64,000 nucleotides of DNA from the NCBI RefSeq assembly GCF_018863395.1, contig NZ_JAHKRR010000001.1, positions 992,001-1,056,000 of the forward strand, in the 5' to 3' direction. Each line of letters starts with the position of its first letter. Position 1 is the stretch's first letter. A model generated the notes under the pieces. That model ran no database searches and was not told where the DNA came from. It saw nothing but the letters and a program-made list of their open reading frames with translations. This document shows positions 1,097 to 9,855 of this stretch, in pieces. The position numbers and the translations under genes are program-made. This stretch comes from Sinomicrobium weinanense. Its GTDB lineage: Bacteria > Bacteroidota > Bacteroidia > Flavobacteriales > Flavobacteriaceae.

Positions 1097-1819
1097 CTAT
1101 TTAATCGCACCAAATGCCGCGAAACAGCTGTTTTTATGTAATATTTCCACAGTGCTGAACCCTACTTTTTTCATCAGCTGAAGCTGGTAGTTCACAGAAC
1201 GGGGTGTGTCTTCCTTTTCGATATAGGCAAAGACTTTTTCCTGATAGTCCTTTCCTCCGATTTCCCGGAGATATTCGCCGTACCTGTTCCAAAGCAGGGT
1301 GTTTACGGCTTCTGAATCGTGTATCACAAGGTCGGATATCCAAAAGCTTCCTCCCGGTTTTAACATCCTGTAAATGTTTTTGAAAACCGATTCCCAGTCT
1401 TCGTCTTCCCTTAAATGGTGCAAAACTGCTCCTGCAAGTACAATATCGAAGTGCTTATCCGCAAAATCCGCTTCCCTTATATCCCCGTGAAAAGCATCGA
1501 TCTTTCCGCTGGTCTCAATTCCCACTCTTTCTTCTGCCCTGTCCAGCATGGGCTGTGACAGGTCTACCAGCGTGCAGTTAAGACCTGGGCATTTAGACAG
1601 CATCTTCAAGGTATAATTTCCTGCTCCGCAACCGATGTCCAGAAGATCTTCTGCGCCGGGATTTACACTCCTGGCGGCTTCGATGATCAGTTCGAGGGCC
1701 AGGGGAGCATCTATGGTAGATTGCTGCCCGGTATCGAGATCGGAAAACCGCTCGACATCCTTATCAAACCGTTGCCTTATTTCTTCGTTGGTCGATTTTT
1801 GTATAGTGGTTGCTTTCAT
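1097..1819 (-). CDS. SAM-dependent methyltransferase, class I
   Basis: Predicted soluble methyltransferase of 240 residues. The Rossmann-fold motif I is LLDIGCGAGNYTL at about residues 60-72, motif II acidic residue follows in LVDLSQPML, and the motif IV region is FDIVLAGAVLHHL, all as in the Methyltransf_12/25 families. The substrate cannot be read from sequence. It sits between ilvC and ilvA on the same strand, so it is probably cotranscribed with the ilv genes, but no known step of branched-chain synthesis needs a methyltransferase. The gap to ilvC carries a large palindromic repeat, which may mean it was inserted secondarily. Confidence 0.85.
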   Translation of the reverse strand: MKATTIQKSTNEEIRQRFDKDVERFSDLDTGQQSTIDAPLALELIIEAARSVNPGAEDLLDIGCGAGNYTLKMLSKCPGLNCTLVDLSQPMLDRAEERVGIETSGKIDAFHGDIREADFADKHFDIVLAGAVLHHLREDEDWESVFKNIYRMLKPGGSFWISDLVIHDSEAVNTLLWNRYGEYLREIGGKDYQEKVFAYIEKEDTPRSVNYQLQLMKKVGFSTVEILHKNSCFAAFGAIK

Positions 1820-2009: not shown

Positions 2010-3479
2010 TTATACGATCTTCTTCATCTCTGTCATGGAAGAACGCAGGTACTCCCCTACTTTCTCCACGGGATGGTTCCTGATCTCGGCATTGACCCTG
2101 ATCAGTTCCTGGTTGTCCACGTCATTTCCGTTGCTGAAAGATTTGCCGATAACATTGGTATCGATCTTTTTCATAAAGTCAGACAGCAGGGGTTTACATG
2201 CGTGATCGAACAGGTAGCAGCCGTATTCGGCCGTATCGGAGATCACCCGGTTCATTTCAAAGAGCTTTTTACGCGCAATGGTATTGGCGATAAGCGGGGT
2301 TTCGTGCAGGGATTCGTAATAAGCAGATTCCGCGATGATCCCGGCTTCGGTCATAGTCTCAAAAGCCAGTTCTACTCCGGATTTTACAAAAGCCACCATC
2401 AGCACTGCATGGTCGAAATATTCCTGTTCCGATATAGGATCGTTTGTGATCCCGGTTTTCTCGAAAGCAGTTTCGCCGGTAGCCTTTCTCCAGGATAAGA
2501 GATTTTTATCGTCATTGGCCCAGTCTTCCATCATGGTCTTTGAGAAATGTCCGCTCATAATGTCGTCCATATGTTTCTGAAACAGCGGCCGCATGATCTC
2601 CTTCAGTTCTTCCGACAGACGGAAGGCCTCTATTTTGGCCGGATTAGAGAGCCTGTCCATCATATTGGTTATACCTCCGTGTTTGAGGGCCTCAGTTATG
2701 GTTTCCCATCCGTATTGTACCAGTTTGGCGGCATATGCAGGATCGATGCCTTTTTCTACCATCTTGTCAAAGCTCAGGATAGATCCGGTTTGCAGCAATC
2801 CGCACAGTATGGTCTGCTCTCCCATCAAATCCGATTTTACTTCGGCTACGAAAGACGAACGCAGCACTCCTGCCCTGTGTCCTCCGGTAGCAGCGGCATA
2901 TGCCTTGGCCTGTTCCAGACCGTCTCCGTCGGGATCGTTTTCCGGGTGTACGGCAATAAGTGTAGGCACGCCAAAGCCTCTTTTGTATTCTTCCCTCACT
3001 TCAGAACCGGGACATTTGGGGGCTACCATGATCACGGTAATATCCTTGCGGACCTGCATGCCTTCTTCAACAATATTAAAACCGTGTGAGTAAGAAAGCG
3101 TAGACCCTTCTTTCATAAGCGGCATTACAGTGTTGACCACTGAACTGTGTTGCTTGTCCGGCGTAAGGTTACACACCATATCTGCAGTCGGTATGAGTTC
3201 TTCATAGGTACCTACCTTAAACCCGTTTTCCGTTGCATTTTTATAGGATTGTCTTTGTTCTTTTATGGCGGCTTCCCGGAGGGCATAGGAAATATCCAGT
3301 CCGGAATCTCTCATGTTCAGGCCCTGGTTCAGGCCCTGGGCGCCACATCCTACGATCACTATTTTTTTACCTAACAGTTTTTTTACACCTTCACTGAATT
3401 CAGACTTGTCCATGAATTCGCATACACCTAATTGTTGTAATTGAAGCCTTAGCGGAAGCGTGTTAAAGTAATTTGCCAT
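2010..3479 (-). CDS. ilvC: Ketol-acid reductoisomerase (NADP+), class II
   Basis: Isomerises and reduces 2-acetolactate or 2-aceto-2-hydroxybutyrate to the dihydroxy acids, the second common step of Val/Ile synthesis. The protein has 489 residues, the long class II (Escherichia coli-like) form with a duplicated knotted C-terminal domain, not the roughly 330-residue class I form. The nucleotide-binding motif is [17 protein letters not shown] at about 39-55 and the following basic residues ([13 protein letters not shown]) fit NADPH preference. It lies between ilvN and the methyltransferase on the same strand. The gap to ilvN holds a perfect palindrome (3562-3583). Confidence 0.97.
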
Positions 3480-3614: not shown

Positions 3615-4139
3615 CTATGCATTTTGAAATTCCTGTAACAGGGCGGATATATTCATTTCTGCCTTCGATACTGCTATCCTGCCGGAACGCACAAACTGCA
3701 TAATACCAAAGGGAGCCAACTCATCGTAAAGGGCGTCGGTTTCGTGCCGCCTGCCGGTCTTTTCGATCACGAAAAACTCCCGGGCCACCGTAACGATATT
3801 GGCATTACTGTTCTTGATGATATTCTGTATCTGACGCTCGTCGAACAACAGATCCGACTTTATCTTGAACAGTGCAGTCTCCTGATAGATGGTCTCTTCA
3901 TCGGTATGATAATAAGCCTTGATTACCTCGATCTGTTTTTCCAGCTGGCCTACGATCTTTCGCACCTGGTCCTCATCCATCGCGGCTACAATGACAAACC
4001 GGCTCACATGCTCTATCTCACATTCCGAAACGGTAAGGCTCTCTATGTTGATATGCCGTTTTAAAAATATGGCTGATATCCTGCTCAGCAATCCTATGTT
4101 GTTCTCCGAATATATGGAAACGGTATATGTTTTATTCAT
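3615..4139 (-). CDS. ilvN: Acetolactate synthase small (regulatory) subunit
   Basis: Regulatory subunit that binds valine and activates and feedback-inhibits the catalytic subunit. At 174 residues it has the usual length. The N-terminal ACT domain starts with YTVSIYSENNIGLLSRISAIF (split here only by naming residues 4-24), including the Asn-x-x-Gly-L-L core that binds valine, and a second ALS_ss_C domain fills the C-terminal half. It lies about 93 bases downstream of ilvB on the same strand; the gap contains a short inverted repeat with the words TTTTGGAGT and ACTCCAGGGCTCCAAAAC. Confidence 0.93.
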   Translation of the reverse strand: MNKTYTVSIYSENNIGLLSRISAIFLKRHINIESLTVSECEIEHVSRFVIVAAMDEDQVRKIVGQLEKQIEVIKAYYHTDEETIYQETALFKIKSDLLFDERQIQNIIKNSNANIVTVAREFFVIEKTGRRHETDALYDELAPFGIMQFVRSGRIAVSKAEMNISALLQEFQNA

Positions 4140-4232: not shown

Positions 4233-5966
4233 TTACTCCAATCTGCAATCAGATACGGAAGCGCCCGTGGGGATCATCGGAAATACATTGTCTTCCTTCT
4301 CCACGCAAACCTCCAGGAAATAAGCCTCTTCTGACGCGATCATTTCGTCAATGGCTCCATCCAATTCTTCCCGTCCGGTTACCCTTTTGGCCGGGATGTG
4401 GTATCCTTTGGCTATGGTTATAAAATCCGGATTTACCAGTTCGGTGGAAGCGTATCTCTTATCGAAGAACAATTGCTGCCACTGGCGTACCATACCCAGA
4501 AAGTCGTTATTGAGCACTACGATCTTTACGGGGACCCGTGTCTGAAAAATAGTGCCGAGCTCCTGGATGGTCATCTGGTACCCTCCGTCTCCTATGATGG
4601 CAACCACTTCCCTGTCCGGGGAGCCCATTTTAGCCCCTATGGCCGCCGGGAGGGCAAATCCCATGGTACCCAGTCCACCGGAAGTGACATTGCTCTTGGT
4701 CTGGTTGAATTTGGCATAACGACAGGCGATCATCTGGTGTTGCCCTACGTCAGATACGATCACGGCATCGCCCCCGGTACGCTTGTTTATCTTTTCTATC
4801 ACTTCTCCCATGGTTAGTTTTTCTTTCGCAGGGAAAAGATCGTTCTTAATGACCTTATCGTATTCAATGGCATGCTTTTCTTCGAATTCACGGCACCATG
4901 CCTCGTGTTTGTTCTCTTTCACCAGGGGCAGCAGGTGTTGCAGCGTTTCCTTTACATCACCGAGAACAGCGACGTCGGTCTTTACGTTCTTGTCTACTTC
5001 GGCAGGGTCTATCTCAAAATGGATAACCCTGGCTTGTTTGGCGTAGGTATTGAGATCCCCGGTCACTCTGTCGTCGAACCGCATACCTATTGCTATCAGA
5101 ACATCACATTCGTTGGTGAGCAGATTGGGGCCATAATTGCCATGCATCCCCACCATTCCCATATGTAACGGGTGTTCCGTGGGCAGAGCAGAAAGTCCCA
5201 ATACCGTACTGGCTGCTGGGATCCCGGCTTTTTCGATCAGGGTCTTTAATTCCTCTTCTGCTTTTCCCAGTATAACGCCTTGTCCGAATACAATATATGG
5301 TTTTTTAGCGCTGTTGATCAGTGCAGCGGCCTCTTCCACCTTTGCAGGATCCATGACCGGTTTGGGTTTGTAGCTTCGTATCCCGGTACACTTTTTATAA
5401 GAAAAATCAAATTCCTCGAACTGGGCATTCTTGGTAATGTCTATAAGTACGGGACCGGGACGGCCGGAACGGGCAATGTAGAATGCTTTTGCCAGGGCCG
5501 TCGGTATGTCTGCCGCTTTGGTTACCTGGTAGCTCCATTTGGTCACTGGTGTGGAAATACCGATGATGTCGGTTTCCTGGAAGGCATCTGTTCCCAGCAA
5601 ATGCCGGGGCACCTGCCCGGTGATACATACCATGGGAGTGGAATCGATCTGGGCATCGGCAATTCCGGTCACGAGATTGGTTGCTCCGGGACCGGAGGTT
5701 GCCATGGCAACACCTACTCTGCCCGAGACCCTGGCGTATCCCTGTGCCGCATGTGTGGCTCCCTGTTCGTGACGGGTAAGCACATGGTGCAGTTGATCCC
5801 GAAATTTATACAATTCGTCATAAACGGGCATAATAGCCCCCCCGGGATAACCGTAAATGAGGTCTACTCCTTCTTCCAAGAGACACCGGATCACGGCTTC
5901 AGCCCCACTGATTTTTATGGATGCTTTGCTTTCCGTCTCTACTAATTTTTCTTTTAATGTTTCCAT
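4233..5966 (-). CDS. ilvB: Acetolactate synthase large (catalytic) subunit
   Basis: ThDP-dependent condensation of pyruvate with pyruvate or 2-oxobutanoate. I set the start at the ATG at 5966 (METLKEK, 577 residues); the open frame extends 23 codons upstream but that part is not family-like and overlaps a hairpin. Three domains are visible: the PYR domain with catalytic glutamate in RHEQGA (about E67), a central domain, and the PP domain with the metal/ThDP motif GDGGYQMTIQELGTI followed by NND. It is cotranscribed with ilvD upstream and ilvN downstream. Confidence 0.96.
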   Translation of the reverse strand: METLKEKLVETESKASIKISGAEAVIRCLLEEGVDLIYGYPGGAIMPVYDELYKFRDQLHHVLTRHEQGATHAAQGYARVSGRVGVAMATSGPGATNLVTGIADAQIDSTPMVCITGQVPRHLLGTDAFQETDIIGISTPVTKWSYQVTKAADIPTALAKAFYIARSGRPGPVLIDITKNAQFEEFDFSYKKCTGIRSYKPKPVMDPAKVEEAAALINSAKKPYIVFGQGVILGKAEEELKTLIEKAGIPAASTVLGLSALPTEHPLHMGMVGMHGNYGPNLLTNECDVLIAIGMRFDDRVTGDLNTYAKQARVIHFEIDPAEVDKNVKTDVAVLGDVKETLQHLLPLVKENKHEAWCREFEEKHAIEYDKVIKNDLFPAKEKLTMGEVIEKINKRTGGDAVIVSDVGQHQMIACRYAKFNQTKSNVTSGGLGTMGFALPAAIGAKMGSPDREVVAIIGDGGYQMTIQELGTIFQTRVPVKIVVLNNDFLGMVRQWQQLFFDKRYASTELVNPDFITIAKGYHIPAKRVTGREELDGAIDEMIASEEAYFLEVCVEKEDNVFPMIPTGASVSDCRLE

Positions 5967-6030
5967 ATTTGTTCTTGTTGTTACACCAGATATGTACGGT
6001 CTAATATGTACGACCATACATATCCTGCGA

Positions 6031-6057
6031 GGCACAATGCATTGCGCCCCTACGGGG
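6031..6057. repeat. Dispersed palindromic repeat GCAATGCATTGC, copy 1
   Basis: The core GCACAATGCATTGCGCCCC followed by TACGGGG is one of four copies of a REP-like palindrome in this window; the others are at 34459-34481, 35252-35278 and 38380-38407, all inside ilv or his operon gaps. Here it sits just after the ilvD stop codon, between ilvD and ilvB. Confidence 0.75.
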
Positions 6058-6058
6058 A

Positions 6059-7732
6059 TTAAAATTCATCGGTAACACATCCTTCGGATGCGGATGAAAC
6101 CGTTTTGGCGTATTTGTACAATATTCCTTTTTTCTCTTTTAATGGCGGTTGTTTCCACTTTGCCCTCCTCTGACTGATCTCTTCATCGGACAGTTCTACT
6201 TCTATCGTGTTCTTTACCGCATCTATGGTAATGATATCACCATCTTCTACCAGGGCAATAGTACCTCCGTCCTGAGCCTCGGGCGAAACATGCCCTACAA
6301 CGAACCCATGAGATCCTCCGGAAAACCGTCCGTCGGTGATCAGGGCCACATCTTTTCCGAGTCCTGCTCCCATAATGGCAGATGTCGGTTTAAGCATTTC
6401 CGGCATCCCGGGGGCTCCCTTAGGGCCTTCATAGCGGATGATCACCACATCCCCTTTTTCCACCTTACCATCTTTGATCCCGGCATTGACCTCGGACTCG
6501 CCGTTAAACACCTTGGCTTTTCCGGTAAAACTCAGGCCCTCTTTTCCGGTGATCTTGGCTACGGCCCCTTTTTCGGCCAGGTTACCGTATAAGATACGTA
6601 TATGCCCTGTGGTCTTTATCGGCTGGTCCAGAGGACGGATAATGTCCTGCCCTTCTTCCAGGTCGGGGACTTCTGCCAGGTTTTCTGCCAGTGTTTTCCC
6701 GGTAACTGTCATACAATCGCCGTGCAACATCCCTTCTTTCAGCATATATTTCAGAACCGCCGGAATACCTCCTATGCGGTGAAGGTCTTCCATCACATAC
6801 TTGCCGCTGGGTTTCAGATTGGCCAGCAGGGGGGTGTTATCGCTTATACGCCTAAAGTCATCCAGGGTAAAGTCTACTTCCGCAGCTTTGGCTATGGCCA
6901 TAAAATGCAGTACGGCATTAGTAGAACCCCCGAGAACGGTGACTACGCGAAAAGCGTTCTCCAGGGATCTTCTGGTGACAATATCCCTGGGCTTAATATC
7001 GTTTTCCAACAGGTGCCGCAATGCTTTACCTGCTGCAATACATTCTTCTTTTTTTCCATTGTCAACCGCAGGGGTCGAAGAATTATAAGGAAGCGACATT
7101 CCCATGGTCTCTATGGCAGATGCCATGGTATTCGCAGTGTACATACCACCACAGGCCCCTGCACCGGGGCACGCTTTATGAATAACATTTTTATACTCTT
7201 CTTCGGTGATGCTTCCGGCTACCTTGCTTCCCCAGGCTTCGAAAGCTGAAATAATATCCAGTTTTTTATCGTTGTGACATCCGGCTGCGATAGTTCCGCC
7301 ATAAACCAGTACGGACGGACGGTTTAAGCGTAGCATTGCCATTAGTGCCCCGGGCATGTTCTTATCGCATCCCACTACCGTGGCAACTCCGTCATAACTC
7401 ATCCCCTCGACGACCGTTTCTATGGAATCGGCTATAATATCCCTGGAAGGAAGGGAATAACGCATTCCCTGTGTTCCGTTGGAAATACCGTCGCTTACTC
7501 CGATGGTGTTAAAAATAAGCCCTACAAGGCCGGCTTCTTCCGTACCTTTTTTTACATATTCGGACAAACCATTGAGGTGCATGTTACAGGGGTTTCCTTC
7601 ATAACCGGTACTTGCGATACCGACGAGTGGTTTCTTCAGATCGTCGTCGCTCAGGCCTATGGCATGTAACATGGCCTGCGCAGCGGGTAGTGTCGGATCC
7701 TGAGTTACTTGTTTGCTATACTTGTTTAACAT
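6059..7732 (-). CDS. ilvD: Dihydroxy-acid dehydratase
   Basis: Dehydrates 2,3-dihydroxy acids to the 2-oxo acids, the third common step of Val/Ile synthesis, using an Fe-S cluster. The 557-residue protein has full family length. Likely cluster ligands are C49 (GNPCNMH), C122 (VGCDKNMPG) and C194 ([15 protein letters not shown]). The C-terminal swivelling domain with [14 protein letters not shown] is present. It is the first structural gene of the operon and follows the two leader-peptide attenuators at 7918-8197, which should control the whole unit. Confidence 0.97.
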
Positions 7733-7917
7733 TATTTAATAAATATTTATTTTTCCTGTTATAGTTTACGATCAGCTAAATTATTTGATATAAAATCACC
7801 AGTATTTTAACATTAAAACCGTTTTTTAAACTCAATCTTCTTTACAATTAATTACCGTGTTGATTTACAGAGTTTTATATTACTTATTCTTATCATATCC
7901 AAAAAAGAATAAAACTG

Positions 7918-7964
7918 TAAAAACAAAGGGCCCGTATCTTCCTTCTGGTTGATACAGGCCCTTT
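7918..7964 (-). terminator. Attenuator terminator 2 of the ilv leader
   Basis: On the minus strand AAAGGGCCTGTATC (7951-7964) pairs with GATACGGGCCCTTT (7925-7938) around a 12-base loop, with one mismatch, and is followed by GTTTTTAC, a Rho-independent terminator layout. It lies 193 bases before the ilvD start. Its 5' arm overlaps CTGTATCAACC (7947-7957), which is the exact 11-base complement of GGTTGATACAG (7982-7992) overlapping the stop codon of the leader peptide at 7987-8049. Terminator and antiterminator are therefore mutually exclusive. Confidence 0.85.
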
Positions 7965-7986
7965 GCTATGGCATATCATTACTGTA

Positions 7987-8049
7987 TCAACCCGGGAGTG
8001 AGTTCACAATGACAATAATAATAATGACTATTTGGTGTACCATTTGCAT
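7987..8049 (-). CDS. ilv leader peptide 2 (Ile/Val-rich, 20 residues)
   Basis: A short ORF starting ATG-CAA-ATG and ending TGA, encoding a 20-residue peptide with the run IVIIIIVIV: nine consecutive Ile or Val codons, then NSLPG. It lies directly upstream of attenuator terminator 2. Its stop codon is inside the sequence that forms the antiterminator stem, the geometry of classical ribosome-mediated attenuation. Stalling at uncharged Ile/Val tRNA would leave the antiterminator free, while a ribosome reaching the TGA would cover it and let the terminator form. I infer the regulation; the codon run and the pairing are read directly. Confidence 0.85.
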   Translation of the reverse strand: MQMVHQIVIIIIVIVNSLPG

Positions 8050-8068
8050 ACTTTAATCTATAAGCTGA

Positions 8069-8104
8069 AACAAAAAAGCCTCCCCGTTTTTCCGGGAAGG
8101 CTTT
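8069..8104 (-). terminator. Attenuator terminator 1 of the ilv leader
   Basis: On the minus strand AAAGCCTTCCCG (8093-8104) pairs with CGGGGAGGCTTT (8075-8086), followed by TTTTGTTTC. The arm TTCCCGG (8092-8098) can alternatively pair with CTGGGAA (8131-8137), which follows the stop codon of the leader peptide at 8138-8197, seven pairs including one G-U. This is the same design as the second unit 130 bases downstream but with a shorter antiterminator. Confidence 0.78.
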
Positions 8105-8137
8105 GCATCAAAAATATATTGTACATACCATTCCCAG

Positions 8138-8197
8138 TCAGGGTGAAATAATCACAATGACGATGACGGTAATGATATGGATAAAATTTGTCTTCAT
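8138..8197 (-). CDS. ilv leader peptide 1 (Thr/Ile/Val-rich, 19 residues)
   Basis: Short ORF from ATG at 8197 to TGA at 8138-8140. The peptide contains IHIITVIVIVII, so eleven of twelve consecutive residues after N4-F5 are Ile, Val, Thr or one His. It precedes attenuator terminator 1. Part of its codon sequence (GTC ATT GTG A, then TCA C) repeats in leader peptide 2, which suggests that the two units arose by duplication. A degenerate Bacteroidota -7 box (TAATATTG, 8207-8214) lies only ten bases upstream, too close to be sure of. Confidence 0.8.
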   Translation of the reverse strand: MKTNFIHIITVIVIVIISP

Positions 8198-8321
8198 TTA
8201 TAAGTACAATATTAGTAAGATTTTTTTAATGATAAAGCACTTTTGTTTCACTTTTATCATATTATTAATAATCTGCTTTTATATCTTACATATATTCAAT
8301 ATGATACGGGTTTCTGTTTGC

Positions 8322-8356
8322 AAAAAAGCCGCCTTAAATAATTAAGGCGGCCTTTT
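8322..8356 (-). terminator. Rho-independent terminator after the first SusC/SusD pair
   Basis: GCCGCCTTAA (minus strand, 8342-8351) pairs perfectly with TTAAGGCGGC (8328-8337) around a four-base loop, followed by TTTTTTG. It lies 42 bases after the stop of the SusD-like gene at 8398 and isolates the uptake locus from the ilv operon. Confidence 0.85.
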
Positions 8357-8397
8357 CTAATTCAAAAAATTACAAAATTAGAACTAAACATGATCGA

Positions 8398-9855
8398 TCA
8401 TTTAACATCCCACCACAGTCTGGTATGCAGATTATCCGGTCCCTGGAAGGATATCATTTCATCGTAATTGGCTTTATTATTATCTGCGATGGAAGCATCG
8501 TAAGCATGTCTTACCGGGATCCTCGGATCATTCGCAAAGGAAGAAGGTGTCAGGGAAGGAGCGTCGAGTCTCCTCCATTCGGCCCAGGCTTCGGGACCGT
8601 TCAGGTATAATGCCACCCATTTTTCATAGGCGATGTCTTCAATGTCTCCGTAAGGATGGTCGGCAATATAGTCCGCAGTGTCTTCTTCACTAATCCCCCA
8701 ATATTCCATAGACGCAACAATGGCCTCTTCATACAGGGTGGCTGCATCGCTTCCGCCTACATTCCATCCTTTTCCGGCAGCTTCCGCCAGGGCGAATTTT
8801 ACCTGGGCAGCCGTATAGATCGGGGAAGGATAGTCGGGGGTGTAAATGATCTCAGCTGGCATAAAGGAGTAATTCGGTACATCTCCGTTTACCTTGCCGT
8901 TCGGGGCCCCTACATAACCCGCATCCATTCCATCGGGGAACTTGGTCACTGTGGAAACACTGTCCCTCGCCGGCTCTGCATATTTAAAAAGCCTCGGATC
9001 GAGGTTGTCCCGTAAAGATTCTATCATGGTCCGGGAAAGGATGTAGTCTTCACGGGTTTTGAAATTATCGTTCCACGGACTGTCGCTGTTATCGTCGGTG
9101 CCGTAATGATACTCTATATTATCGTCATTTGACATTACCAGCAATCCCGATGCCACAGCTTCTTCGAATTTGGTCTGGGCCAGCCCGGGCTTTACATCTG
9201 ATATTCTCAACGCCATGGTCATTTTAAGATTATTAGCGAACGATGCCCATCTTTCCAGGTCCCCGTCGAACAAAAAGTCCCCGTCCGGCGCAGGAGTTTC
9301 GTAATCTATAAGCGACAAGGCCTCTTCGATCTCGGCAAAGAGAAAATCGTATATACTCTCCTGTGTATCGAATTTCGGCTGAGGGTTGTCAATCCCCATA
9401 AAAGCCTCCGACCATGGGAGTGCCCCCCACCTGTCGGTCATATAGTGCAGGAAATAGGCCCTGACTATTTTGGCTACGGCTATTTGATTGTCGTTGCTTC
9501 CGTAAGTCAGTACATCGTCTGCTGTTTCGGGATCACTATTGAGCTCTATGATCTTGTTCAGATCCTGTAACGGGCCCACATACCAATCGTCATAGCTATA
9601 TGTCAATCCGGAATATCTCGATGCGCCCGGATACTGTCCTTCTGTAATATGTTGCATGTACAGAATGGGGGTTTCATCAATCACAATGTCCGGGATATTT
9701 GATAATGAATTTGCCAGTAATAAGGAAGTAACCCCTTTGGTCGGGCCATTCGGGTTATCGTTAGTGTCGCCATAATCGACAGTGTCACATGAGCTGTACA
9801 GTATTGTAAGGCACAGAACCCATCCAATATATTGATATAAATTACTCATTTTCAT
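8398..9855 (-). CDS. SusD/RagB-type nutrient-binding lipoprotein (SusD-like_2 group)
   Basis: Predicted surface lipoprotein of 485 residues that acts as the lid of the SusC transporter encoded just upstream (stop of susC at 9862, six bases away). The N-terminus is a type II signal peptide with lipobox LYSSC (Cys about residue 23). The conserved start of the mature part, DTNDNPNGPTKGVTSLLLAN, and the C-terminal EAWAEWRRLDAPSLTP segment match the SusD-like_2 family more than classical SusD. The TPR-like helices (ALSLIDYE, AYFLHYMTDRWGALPWSEAF) are visible. The ligand is unknown. A second in-frame ATG two codons in is an equally good start. Confidence 0.9.
   Translation of the reverse strand: MKMSNLYQYIGWVLCLTILYSSCDTVDYGDTNDNPNGPTKGVTSLLLANSLSNIPDIVIDETPILYMQHITEGQYPGASRYSGLTYSYDDWYVGPLQDLNKIIELNSDPETADDVLTYGSNDNQIAVAKIVRAYFLHYMTDRWGALPWSEAFMGIDNPQPKFDTQESIYDFLFAEIEEALSLIDYETPAPDGDFLFDGDLERWASFANNLKMTMALRISDVKPGLAQTKFEEAVASGLLVMSNDDNIEYHYGTDDNSDSPWNDNFKTREDYILSRTMIESLRDNLDPRLFKYAEPARDSVSTVTKFPDGMDAGYVGAPNGKVNGDVPNYSFMPAEIIYTPDYPSPIYTAAQVKFALAEAAGKGWNVGGSDAATLYEEAIVASMEYWGISEEDTADYIADHPYGDIEDIAYEKWVALYLNGPEAWAEWRRLDAPSLTPSSFANDPRIPVRHAYDASIADNNKANYDEMISFQGPDNLHTRLWWDVK

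Follow-up and report, generated by a model that had tools for sequence, protein, structure and literature searches.

Probable tandem isoleucine/valine leader-peptide attenuators before the ilvD-ilvB-ilvN-ilvC operon of Sinomicrobium weinanense

Two amino-acid attenuator units stand in series 5′ of ilvD-ilvB-ilvN-ilvC in the 64,000-nucleotide stretch of Sinomicrobium weinanense DNA that was analyzed (the window), and they very probably act as ribosome-mediated attenuators that share one signal, the charging of tRNA-Ile and tRNA-Val. Mechanistically this is attenuation of the classical ribosome-mediated kind, and the serial same-signal arrangement is the new part. The leaders are encoded by the minus strand and are flanked by ilvD (7732-6059) and by a hairpin at 8351-8328, which lies 3′ of the upstream gene and is that gene's own. 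The features of the locus are as follows.

8207..8214, minus strand: upstream promoter −7 box, TAATATTG, a 5/6 match to TAnnTTTG that ends 9 nt before the leader A ATG
8138..8197, minus strand: leader A ORF, MKTNFIHIITVIVIVIISP, present in 6/6 genus genomes
8143..8155, minus strand: P1 hairpin of unit A (GTGA-TTATT-TCAC), where the leader ORF ends
8128..8137, minus strand: region 2 of unit A, the 5′ strand of the antiterminator, CTGGGAATGG
8092..8100, minus strand: region 3 of unit A, common to antiterminator and terminator, CCTTCCCGG
8069..8104, minus strand: intrinsic terminator of unit A, stem 8104-8075 plus T tract
7987..8049, minus strand: leader B ORF, MQMVHQIVIIIIVIVNSLPG, with no −7 box found directly 5′
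7989..8004, minus strand: P1 hairpin of unit B (AACTC-ACTCCC-GGGTT)
7982..7992, minus strand: region 2 of unit B, GGTTGATACAG, which includes the UGA stop codon of leader B
7947..7957, minus strand: region 3 of unit B, CTGTATCAACC
7918..7965, minus strand: intrinsic terminator of unit B, stem 7965-7924 plus T tract
7776..7812, minus strand: candidate proximal promoter P2, TGTTAAAA (7812-7805) plus TAATTTAG (7783-7776), a 5/6 match to TAnnTTTG, 43 nt before ilvD
6059..7732, minus strand: ilvD, dihydroxy-acid dehydratase (NCBIfam), first gene of the controlled operon
4233..6035, minus strand: ilvB, acetolactate synthase large subunit (NCBIfam)
3615..4139, minus strand: ilvN, acetolactate synthase small subunit (NCBIfam)
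2010..3479, minus strand: ilvC, ketol-acid reductoisomerase (NCBIfam)

A preliminary description of this DNA had proposed two short Ile/Val-rich leader ORFs (8197-8138 and 8049-7987, minus strand), a terminator after each, and an 11-base antiterminator pairing in the second unit. Both ORFs are there, the two stems each have a T tract behind them, and the pairing of 7992-7982 with 7957-7947 is exact and holds the leader B stop codon (7989-7987). Unit A also has an antiterminator, absent from that description, in which 8137-8128 pairs with 8100-8092 through 9 pairs with one bulged base. As in the ilv, his and trp attenuators, a leader ORF with codons for the end products and an intrinsic terminator precede the first structural gene, and sequence and folding together give an antiterminator that cannot coexist with the terminator and that a ribosome standing on the stop codon would hide. 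Tandem ribosome-mediated attenuation by the logic of the enterobacterial ilv and his leaders, as originally suggested, is the best reading and is supported by the conserved parts. In the operon itself, ilvN passed one NCBIfam model (108 bits vs. 56.9) and narrowly missed another (118.4 vs. 119), and the best named matches of IlvD are those of Sinomicrobium oceani (90%) and Sinomicrobium sp. N-1-3-6 (86% identity, best segment). Beyond ilvC is a methyltransferase-like ORF (1097-1819, minus strand) and beyond that an ilvA-like ORF, named by eye, which extends from 970 and runs off the window, with repeats of the 'caggttgcaggttt' type between the two (1090-1010, minus strand).

In the mechanism proposed, transcription would begin a few bases before leader A and the ribosome would trail the polymerase. 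With charged Ile- and Val-tRNAs available, the ribosome would get to the stop codon and mask both the hairpin at the 3′ end of the leader and region 2, and with region 2 masked, region 3 would pair with region 4 to form the terminator. When these tRNAs are scarce the ribosome would stall in the Ile/Val run, leaving the hairpin and region 2 free, such that the 2:3 duplex would form first and the polymerase would continue past the terminator. The polymerase would next reach unit B, where the test would be repeated with that unit's own leader, antiterminator and terminator. Read-through into the operon would then be the product of two similar responses, giving a lower leak and a steeper response. 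This switching was modeled by folding the nascent window RNA with the ribosome footprint taken out and scoring the upstream pairing of region 3. For unit A, the pairing was 0.98 at each of three A-site positions (nt 27, 36 and 45) and 0.14 with the ribosome at the stop codon, and for unit B it was 1.00 at nt 18, 27 and 36, 0.71 at nt 45 and 0.10 at the stop codon. The ribosome-free nascent RNA gave 0.90 (A) and 0.78 (B), and because the antiterminator forms without a ribosome, untranslated leaders would also read through. In the full-length RNA at equilibrium the terminator wins at every ribosome position, and hence the choice would have to be kinetic and taken during RNA growth.

Conservation of the units was assessed by alignment of ilvD upstream regions, the check that had been put forward for this reading, and the codon runs and stems are kept in 6/6 genus genomes and recur across the family. 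In all six same-genus genomes searched, the window's own included, both units are at about the same places. Codon-position differences over the 15 genus pairs are 60, 25 and 115 in leader A, the pattern expected of a translated ORF, and 111, 49 and 106 in leader B, where the pattern is blurred by I/V exchanges and changing ends and most codon differences alter the amino acid (14 synonymous, 41 within I/V/L, 95 other).

In the family, 197/249 genomes have an ilvD family match. The loci sampled comprised the genus loci, 29 + 115 family loci (a subset of the 197 genomes) and 80 named loci, of which 217 distinct ones were kept after removal of a paralogue (L007), a locus at a contig end (L042) and 12 duplicates judged by 300 nt of upstream sequence. 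Two unit types, A and B, were distinguished and two detectors were used, the looser accepting leaders with 4/8 Ile/Val beside A- or B-type stems and the stricter requiring 5. By the looser detector, two units are found at 23 of the 217 ilvD loci (20 A-B, 3 other tandem), one unit at 88 (36 A alone, 50 B alone, 2 other single) and none at 106; the stricter detector, whose thresholds were chosen after the first loci had been inspected, gives 22, 82 and 113, respectively. The order is A then B in 20/20 A-B tandems, and Zhouia amylolytica is among the species with the A-B arrangement. The two units singled out as unusual are real and are not peculiar to this genome, since other members of the family have the tandem too. 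At 19 of the 106 unit-less loci the end of another gene is no more than 60 nt from ilvD, which is then probably not the first gene there. On a quick IlvD tree the unit states cluster but change often, with 11 changes for the A-B state, of which the starred branches force at least 4; the row for L055 in this tree and its proximal-promoter entry are wrong (wrong strand), and read correctly this locus is also without a unit, such that the count of 106 stands. Another tandem type, with different terminator stems, is seen in Aquimarina (L181, L193 and L211, with similar leaders in L211) and is possibly an independent stacking event.

Profile models of the two units, R1 (B) and R2 (A), have matches at E ≤ 0.001 in 32 and 28, respectively, of 196 genomes of the order, and at many of the weak matches there is a hairpin and no more. 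Among the matches, whether strong or weak, tandem Ile/Val leaders are also found before other genes, which were named by eye: before ilvE-like genes with ilvD next (L245, L249, L258, L271), before ilvE-like genes at L321, L325 and L326, and before ilvN-like genes (L250, L254, L256). At L249 (1080-1660, reverse complement), an A-like hairpin, matched by R2 at E 3.5e-6, is followed by two near-identical leader-terminator units ahead of the ilvE-like and ilvD genes. This apparent triple stands only with a genuine first leader, whose start codon would be TTG, and the near-identical units look as if freshly duplicated. A class-level set of 28 new loci (27 from other orders and L275 from the same family) contains three, L284, L291 and L294, that resemble a single leader unit, and five others with Leu/Ile-rich ORFs before a hairpin that were not counted as units. 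The three, which are outside the order, have GCCTTTCTC stems in single leader-terminator units before ilvD. Within the genome itself, R1 matches unit B (E 5.2e-13), the same unit on the other strand (6.5e-4, owing to palindromy) and unit A (0.017), with all others at 0.024 or weaker, and R2 matches unit A (3.5e-10) and then nothing better than 0.24. The loci inspected for weak R1 and R2 matches contain no further leader pair. At another place in this genome, L242:1516-1597, an Ile/Val ORF of 10 residues (MIIGTVIVVW) precedes a hairpin (weak R2 match, E 0.34).

In Flavobacterium psychrophilum, a TAnnTTTG box is located at −12 to −5 and leaderless mRNAs make up 5.5% (PMC9723704). As the upstream −7 box in the window ends 9 nt before the leader A ATG, transcription is predicted to start at about 8202. 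A leader −7 box, defined as a 5/6 or better match to TAnnTTTG 3-18 nt before the start codon, is present before 18/19 tandem-first A leaders (5.4 in shuffles), 29/36 single-A leaders (13.3) and 38/43 single-B leaders (18.6). Before tandem-second B leaders it is present in 3/20 (9.8 in shuffles), a frequency different from that of single B (Fisher p 2e-8). This rarity suggests that unit B is reached only through unit A, and the second leaders, mostly without a box of this kind to provide entry, would need initiation inside the transcript. Where a box was found, the gap to the start codon is 8-9 nt in 27/47 A leaders (9 in the window) and 4-5 nt in 32/38 single-B leaders, from which the 5′ ends are predicted to precede the AUG by 4-5 nt in A and to coincide with or adjoin it in single B.

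It is nevertheless conceivable, if rather unlikely, that a proximal promoter before ilvD gives most of the expression and that the attenuated units merely add a boost in starvation. All six Sinomicrobium genomes keep TGTTAAAA upstream, followed by TAATTTAG in five and by TATTTTAG in one. A perfect TAnnTTTG at [−66,−33] of ilvD is present in 45/50 single-B loci (2.0 on average in shuffles, 6 at most) and in 30/106 unit-less loci (2.3 on average, 8 at most), but in 0/36 single-A and 3/20 A-B loci (0.4 on average, 5 at most), and these counts are to be read with nine loci in mind (tandem L135, L155 and L172 among them) where an ATG 20 residues inside ilvD was taken as the start and the near-ilvD windows are misplaced. 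The box in Sinomicrobium, moreover, has one mismatch. A promoter that bypasses the unit is thus likely in the single-B loci, judging from these boxes, its activity in Sinomicrobium is uncertain, and the second promoter and the unit type seem to trade off, given the perfect box in nearly all single-B and no single-A loci. The earlier expectation that both units have to be relieved would hold for transcripts from the upstream promoter but is limited to these, because transcripts begun at the proximal promoter (candidate box 7783-7776) may escape the two units. In the ilvD upstreams of relatives, [−100,−33] contains a conserved motif set, TTA.A, TGTTAAAA and TATCTTTG, and the stretch of ~190 nt from terminator B to ilvD (7923-7733, minus strand) shows good conservation among the genus genomes (TTGGATATGATA, TTGAGT.TAAA, TGTTAAAA) and may hold more than a promoter.

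It is improbable that one unit alone is functional and the other a relic. In favor of a relic, A or B is single in 86/217 loci (36 A, 50 B), from which it follows that one unit suffices in many species, leader A of L135 is weak, and L129 has an A-like terminator with a sub-threshold leader. Against it, 6/6 Sinomicrobium genomes keep the leader run, terminator and antiterminator in both units (the A antiterminator of L003 is borderline, p 0.055), and both of the alignments, tandem members included, covary. These alignments were hand-picked for diversity and clean leaders (42/63 B and 36/55 A units), and their pair counts depend on that choice. With this choice of units, 95.6% of cells are paired in the B terminator, where 9 pairs with two-sided change are matched by 0/500 shuffles, and 96.1% in the A terminator, where 4 pairs have two-sided change. 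The B antiterminator is 86.3% paired (slid 27-38%), and its covariation is modest, as 30/500 shuffles attain its 5 two-sided pairs and 105/500 its 13 two-sided cells; the A antiterminator is 78.7% paired vs. 42-68% when slid. Compared with linker shuffles, the region 2:3 duplex reaches p < 0.05 in 23/42 A and 23/35 B units (46/77) and is individually non-significant in the other 19 A and 12 B units; the antiterminator of unit A in the window has p 0.005.

A third helix is present in both A and B, a covarying P1 hairpin of 6 pairs in which each leader ORF ends. The B hairpin is 87.7% paired (slid 33-56%) with 66 two-sided cells vs. 30.1 in shuffles, and the A hairpin 79.6% paired (slid 23-57%) with 12 vs. 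4.3. Compared with the region 1:2 pause or protector hairpin of ilv, his and trp attenuators, which shares region 2, the B hairpin overlaps region 2 at its 5′ edge, outside the region 2 core, and could stack on the antiterminator, since its 3′ arm abuts TGATACAG. The B stop codon is UGA in 54/63 units and in 41/63 this UGA opens the antiterminator core, TGATrYrG, such that a ribosome finishing the peptide must sit on the antiterminator.

Less probable still is that the units read different signals, with A responding to threonine or isoleucine supply and B to isoleucine plus valine, a possibility raised by the two Thr codons in leader A, the ilvA-like ORF downstream and an I:V ratio over all leaders of 2.2 in A and 1.75 in B. 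Ile and Val are, however, present together in 56/58 A leaders (a set that includes 3 second units of Aquimarina) and 62/63 B leaders, at least one Thr occurs in 21/58 A and 22/63 B leaders, and the residue in the middle of leader A is Thr in three genus genomes, Ala in two and Ser in one (T, A, A, S, T and T). The broader supply signal that the preliminary description had suggested from the Thr codons of the first unit was rejected, as Thr is conserved neither in the genus nor across leaders. Val is encoded by GTC in 178/340 Val codons of the leaders vs. 373/3095 in ilvD starts, and the 30/42 tRNA sites of the genome that were covered include one tRNA-Val(GAC) and two tRNA-Val(TAC) genes. GTC (GUC) in leaders may serve RNA pairing or may be chosen for a scarce tRNA, the latter being a lead only. 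In A-unit leaders GTG is common where the leader hairpin requires it.

That ordinary terminators merely happen to lie beside accidental ORFs can be practically dismissed, for although terminator-like hairpins are common in the window (11 on the plus and 18 on the minus strand, same detector), the stricter detector finds 0 units in 5 × 217 (1085) dinucleotide-shuffled upstreams, the units are conserved and covary, and the upstream gene already has its own hairpin at 8351-8328. Reverse strands of the upstreams gave 4 loci with one unit. Over both strands of the 64-kb window, the stricter detector recovers units A and B plus one weak extra match, a Val-rich short ORF followed by a hairpin at 46955-46758 (minus strand), which is the sole other Ile/Val detector match there and is probably due to chance. 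A consensus terminator scan recovered, of the two unit terminators, that of unit A alone.

In the enterobacterial ilv, his and thr attenuators, a leader peptide with control codons, an antiterminator and the terminator with which it competes precede the operon for synthesis of the amino acid concerned. Sinomicrobium has the same type of control-codon leader, competing stems and cognate operon, but it differs in having two units for the same amino acids in series, in the B stop codon being inside the antiterminator, and in a first leader predicted to start no more than ~5 nt from the transcript's 5′ terminus. Several terminators for the same amino acid also stand in series in tandem T-box leaders (thrZ, for example), and there the RNA binds tRNA directly, without a leader peptide. 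The series arrangement is shared with thrZ, and the leader peptides of Sinomicrobium set it apart. No T-box was matched in the window at the Rfam gathering threshold, nor up to E 5 in 7700-8420, and no Rfam family at all reached gathering in the window; the sub-threshold matches are to Thr_leader (RF00506, 26.2 and 25.7 bits, minus strand) and Phe_leader (RF01859, 27.7 bits), with gathering at 55.

Two leader ORFs in one mRNA leader are described for Salmonella mgtCBR, where the tandem attenuators mgtM and mgtP respond to ATP and proline, the effects add, and the stem-loops are unlike intrinsic terminators (PMC3641672). Unlike in that description of mgtCBR, the Sinomicrobium units both have intrinsic terminators and the same predicted signal; different control codons of the mgtCBR type were not found in the two leaders, which are both Ile/Val runs. 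The macrolide operon mefA/msrD is similar in that two ribosome-mediated attenuators, termed a double lock, are present along one operon, but as described it senses a drug, and its second attenuator governs msrD alone rather than both preceding the first gene (PMC10314930). In the same family as Sinomicrobium, amino-acid operons of Flavobacterium psychrophilum are reported to have 'strong clues' of leader-peptide attenuation in their upstream regions, in passages that name no tandem and in a study whose main text does not contain 'ilv' (PMC9723704). Searches of the open-access literature turned up no description of ribosome-mediated attenuators that share one signal and stand in series before an ilv operon, and two comparative studies, Vitreschak 2004 and Lopatovskaya 2010, may hold related predictions.

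A wider and more tentative proposal, to which somewhat less than an even chance is given, is that flavobacteria have their own form of attenuation, in which the first leader would be read from close to the 5′ end, hairpin and stop codon would build the antiterminator, and stacked units (two, once apparently three) would multiply read-through into a steep starvation switch. The phylum Bacteroidota is reported to be without Shine-Dalgarno sequences (PMC6847099), and the units bear on how attenuation, which needs timed ribosome loading, works in such a phylum. With single, double and apparently triple copies of one attenuator kind before the same pathway, they also form a natural series by which the benefit of stacking same-signal sensors (leak, steepness, noise) becomes testable.

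The genome seems to use leader-peptide attenuation elsewhere too, as a single-unit His leader (41291-41173, minus strand), against which the doubled ilv leader stands out, precedes his genes within the window. Its ORF (MNPNVLHHHHFFTCTQAR, 41291-41235, minus strand), which is the R1 match at E 0.024, has four consecutive His codons and is followed by a terminator-like hairpin from 41201 and then by hisG (41092-40235), hisD, hisC and hisB. A motif downstream of the His leader, ATAATGGTATGTA, resembles that of unit A.
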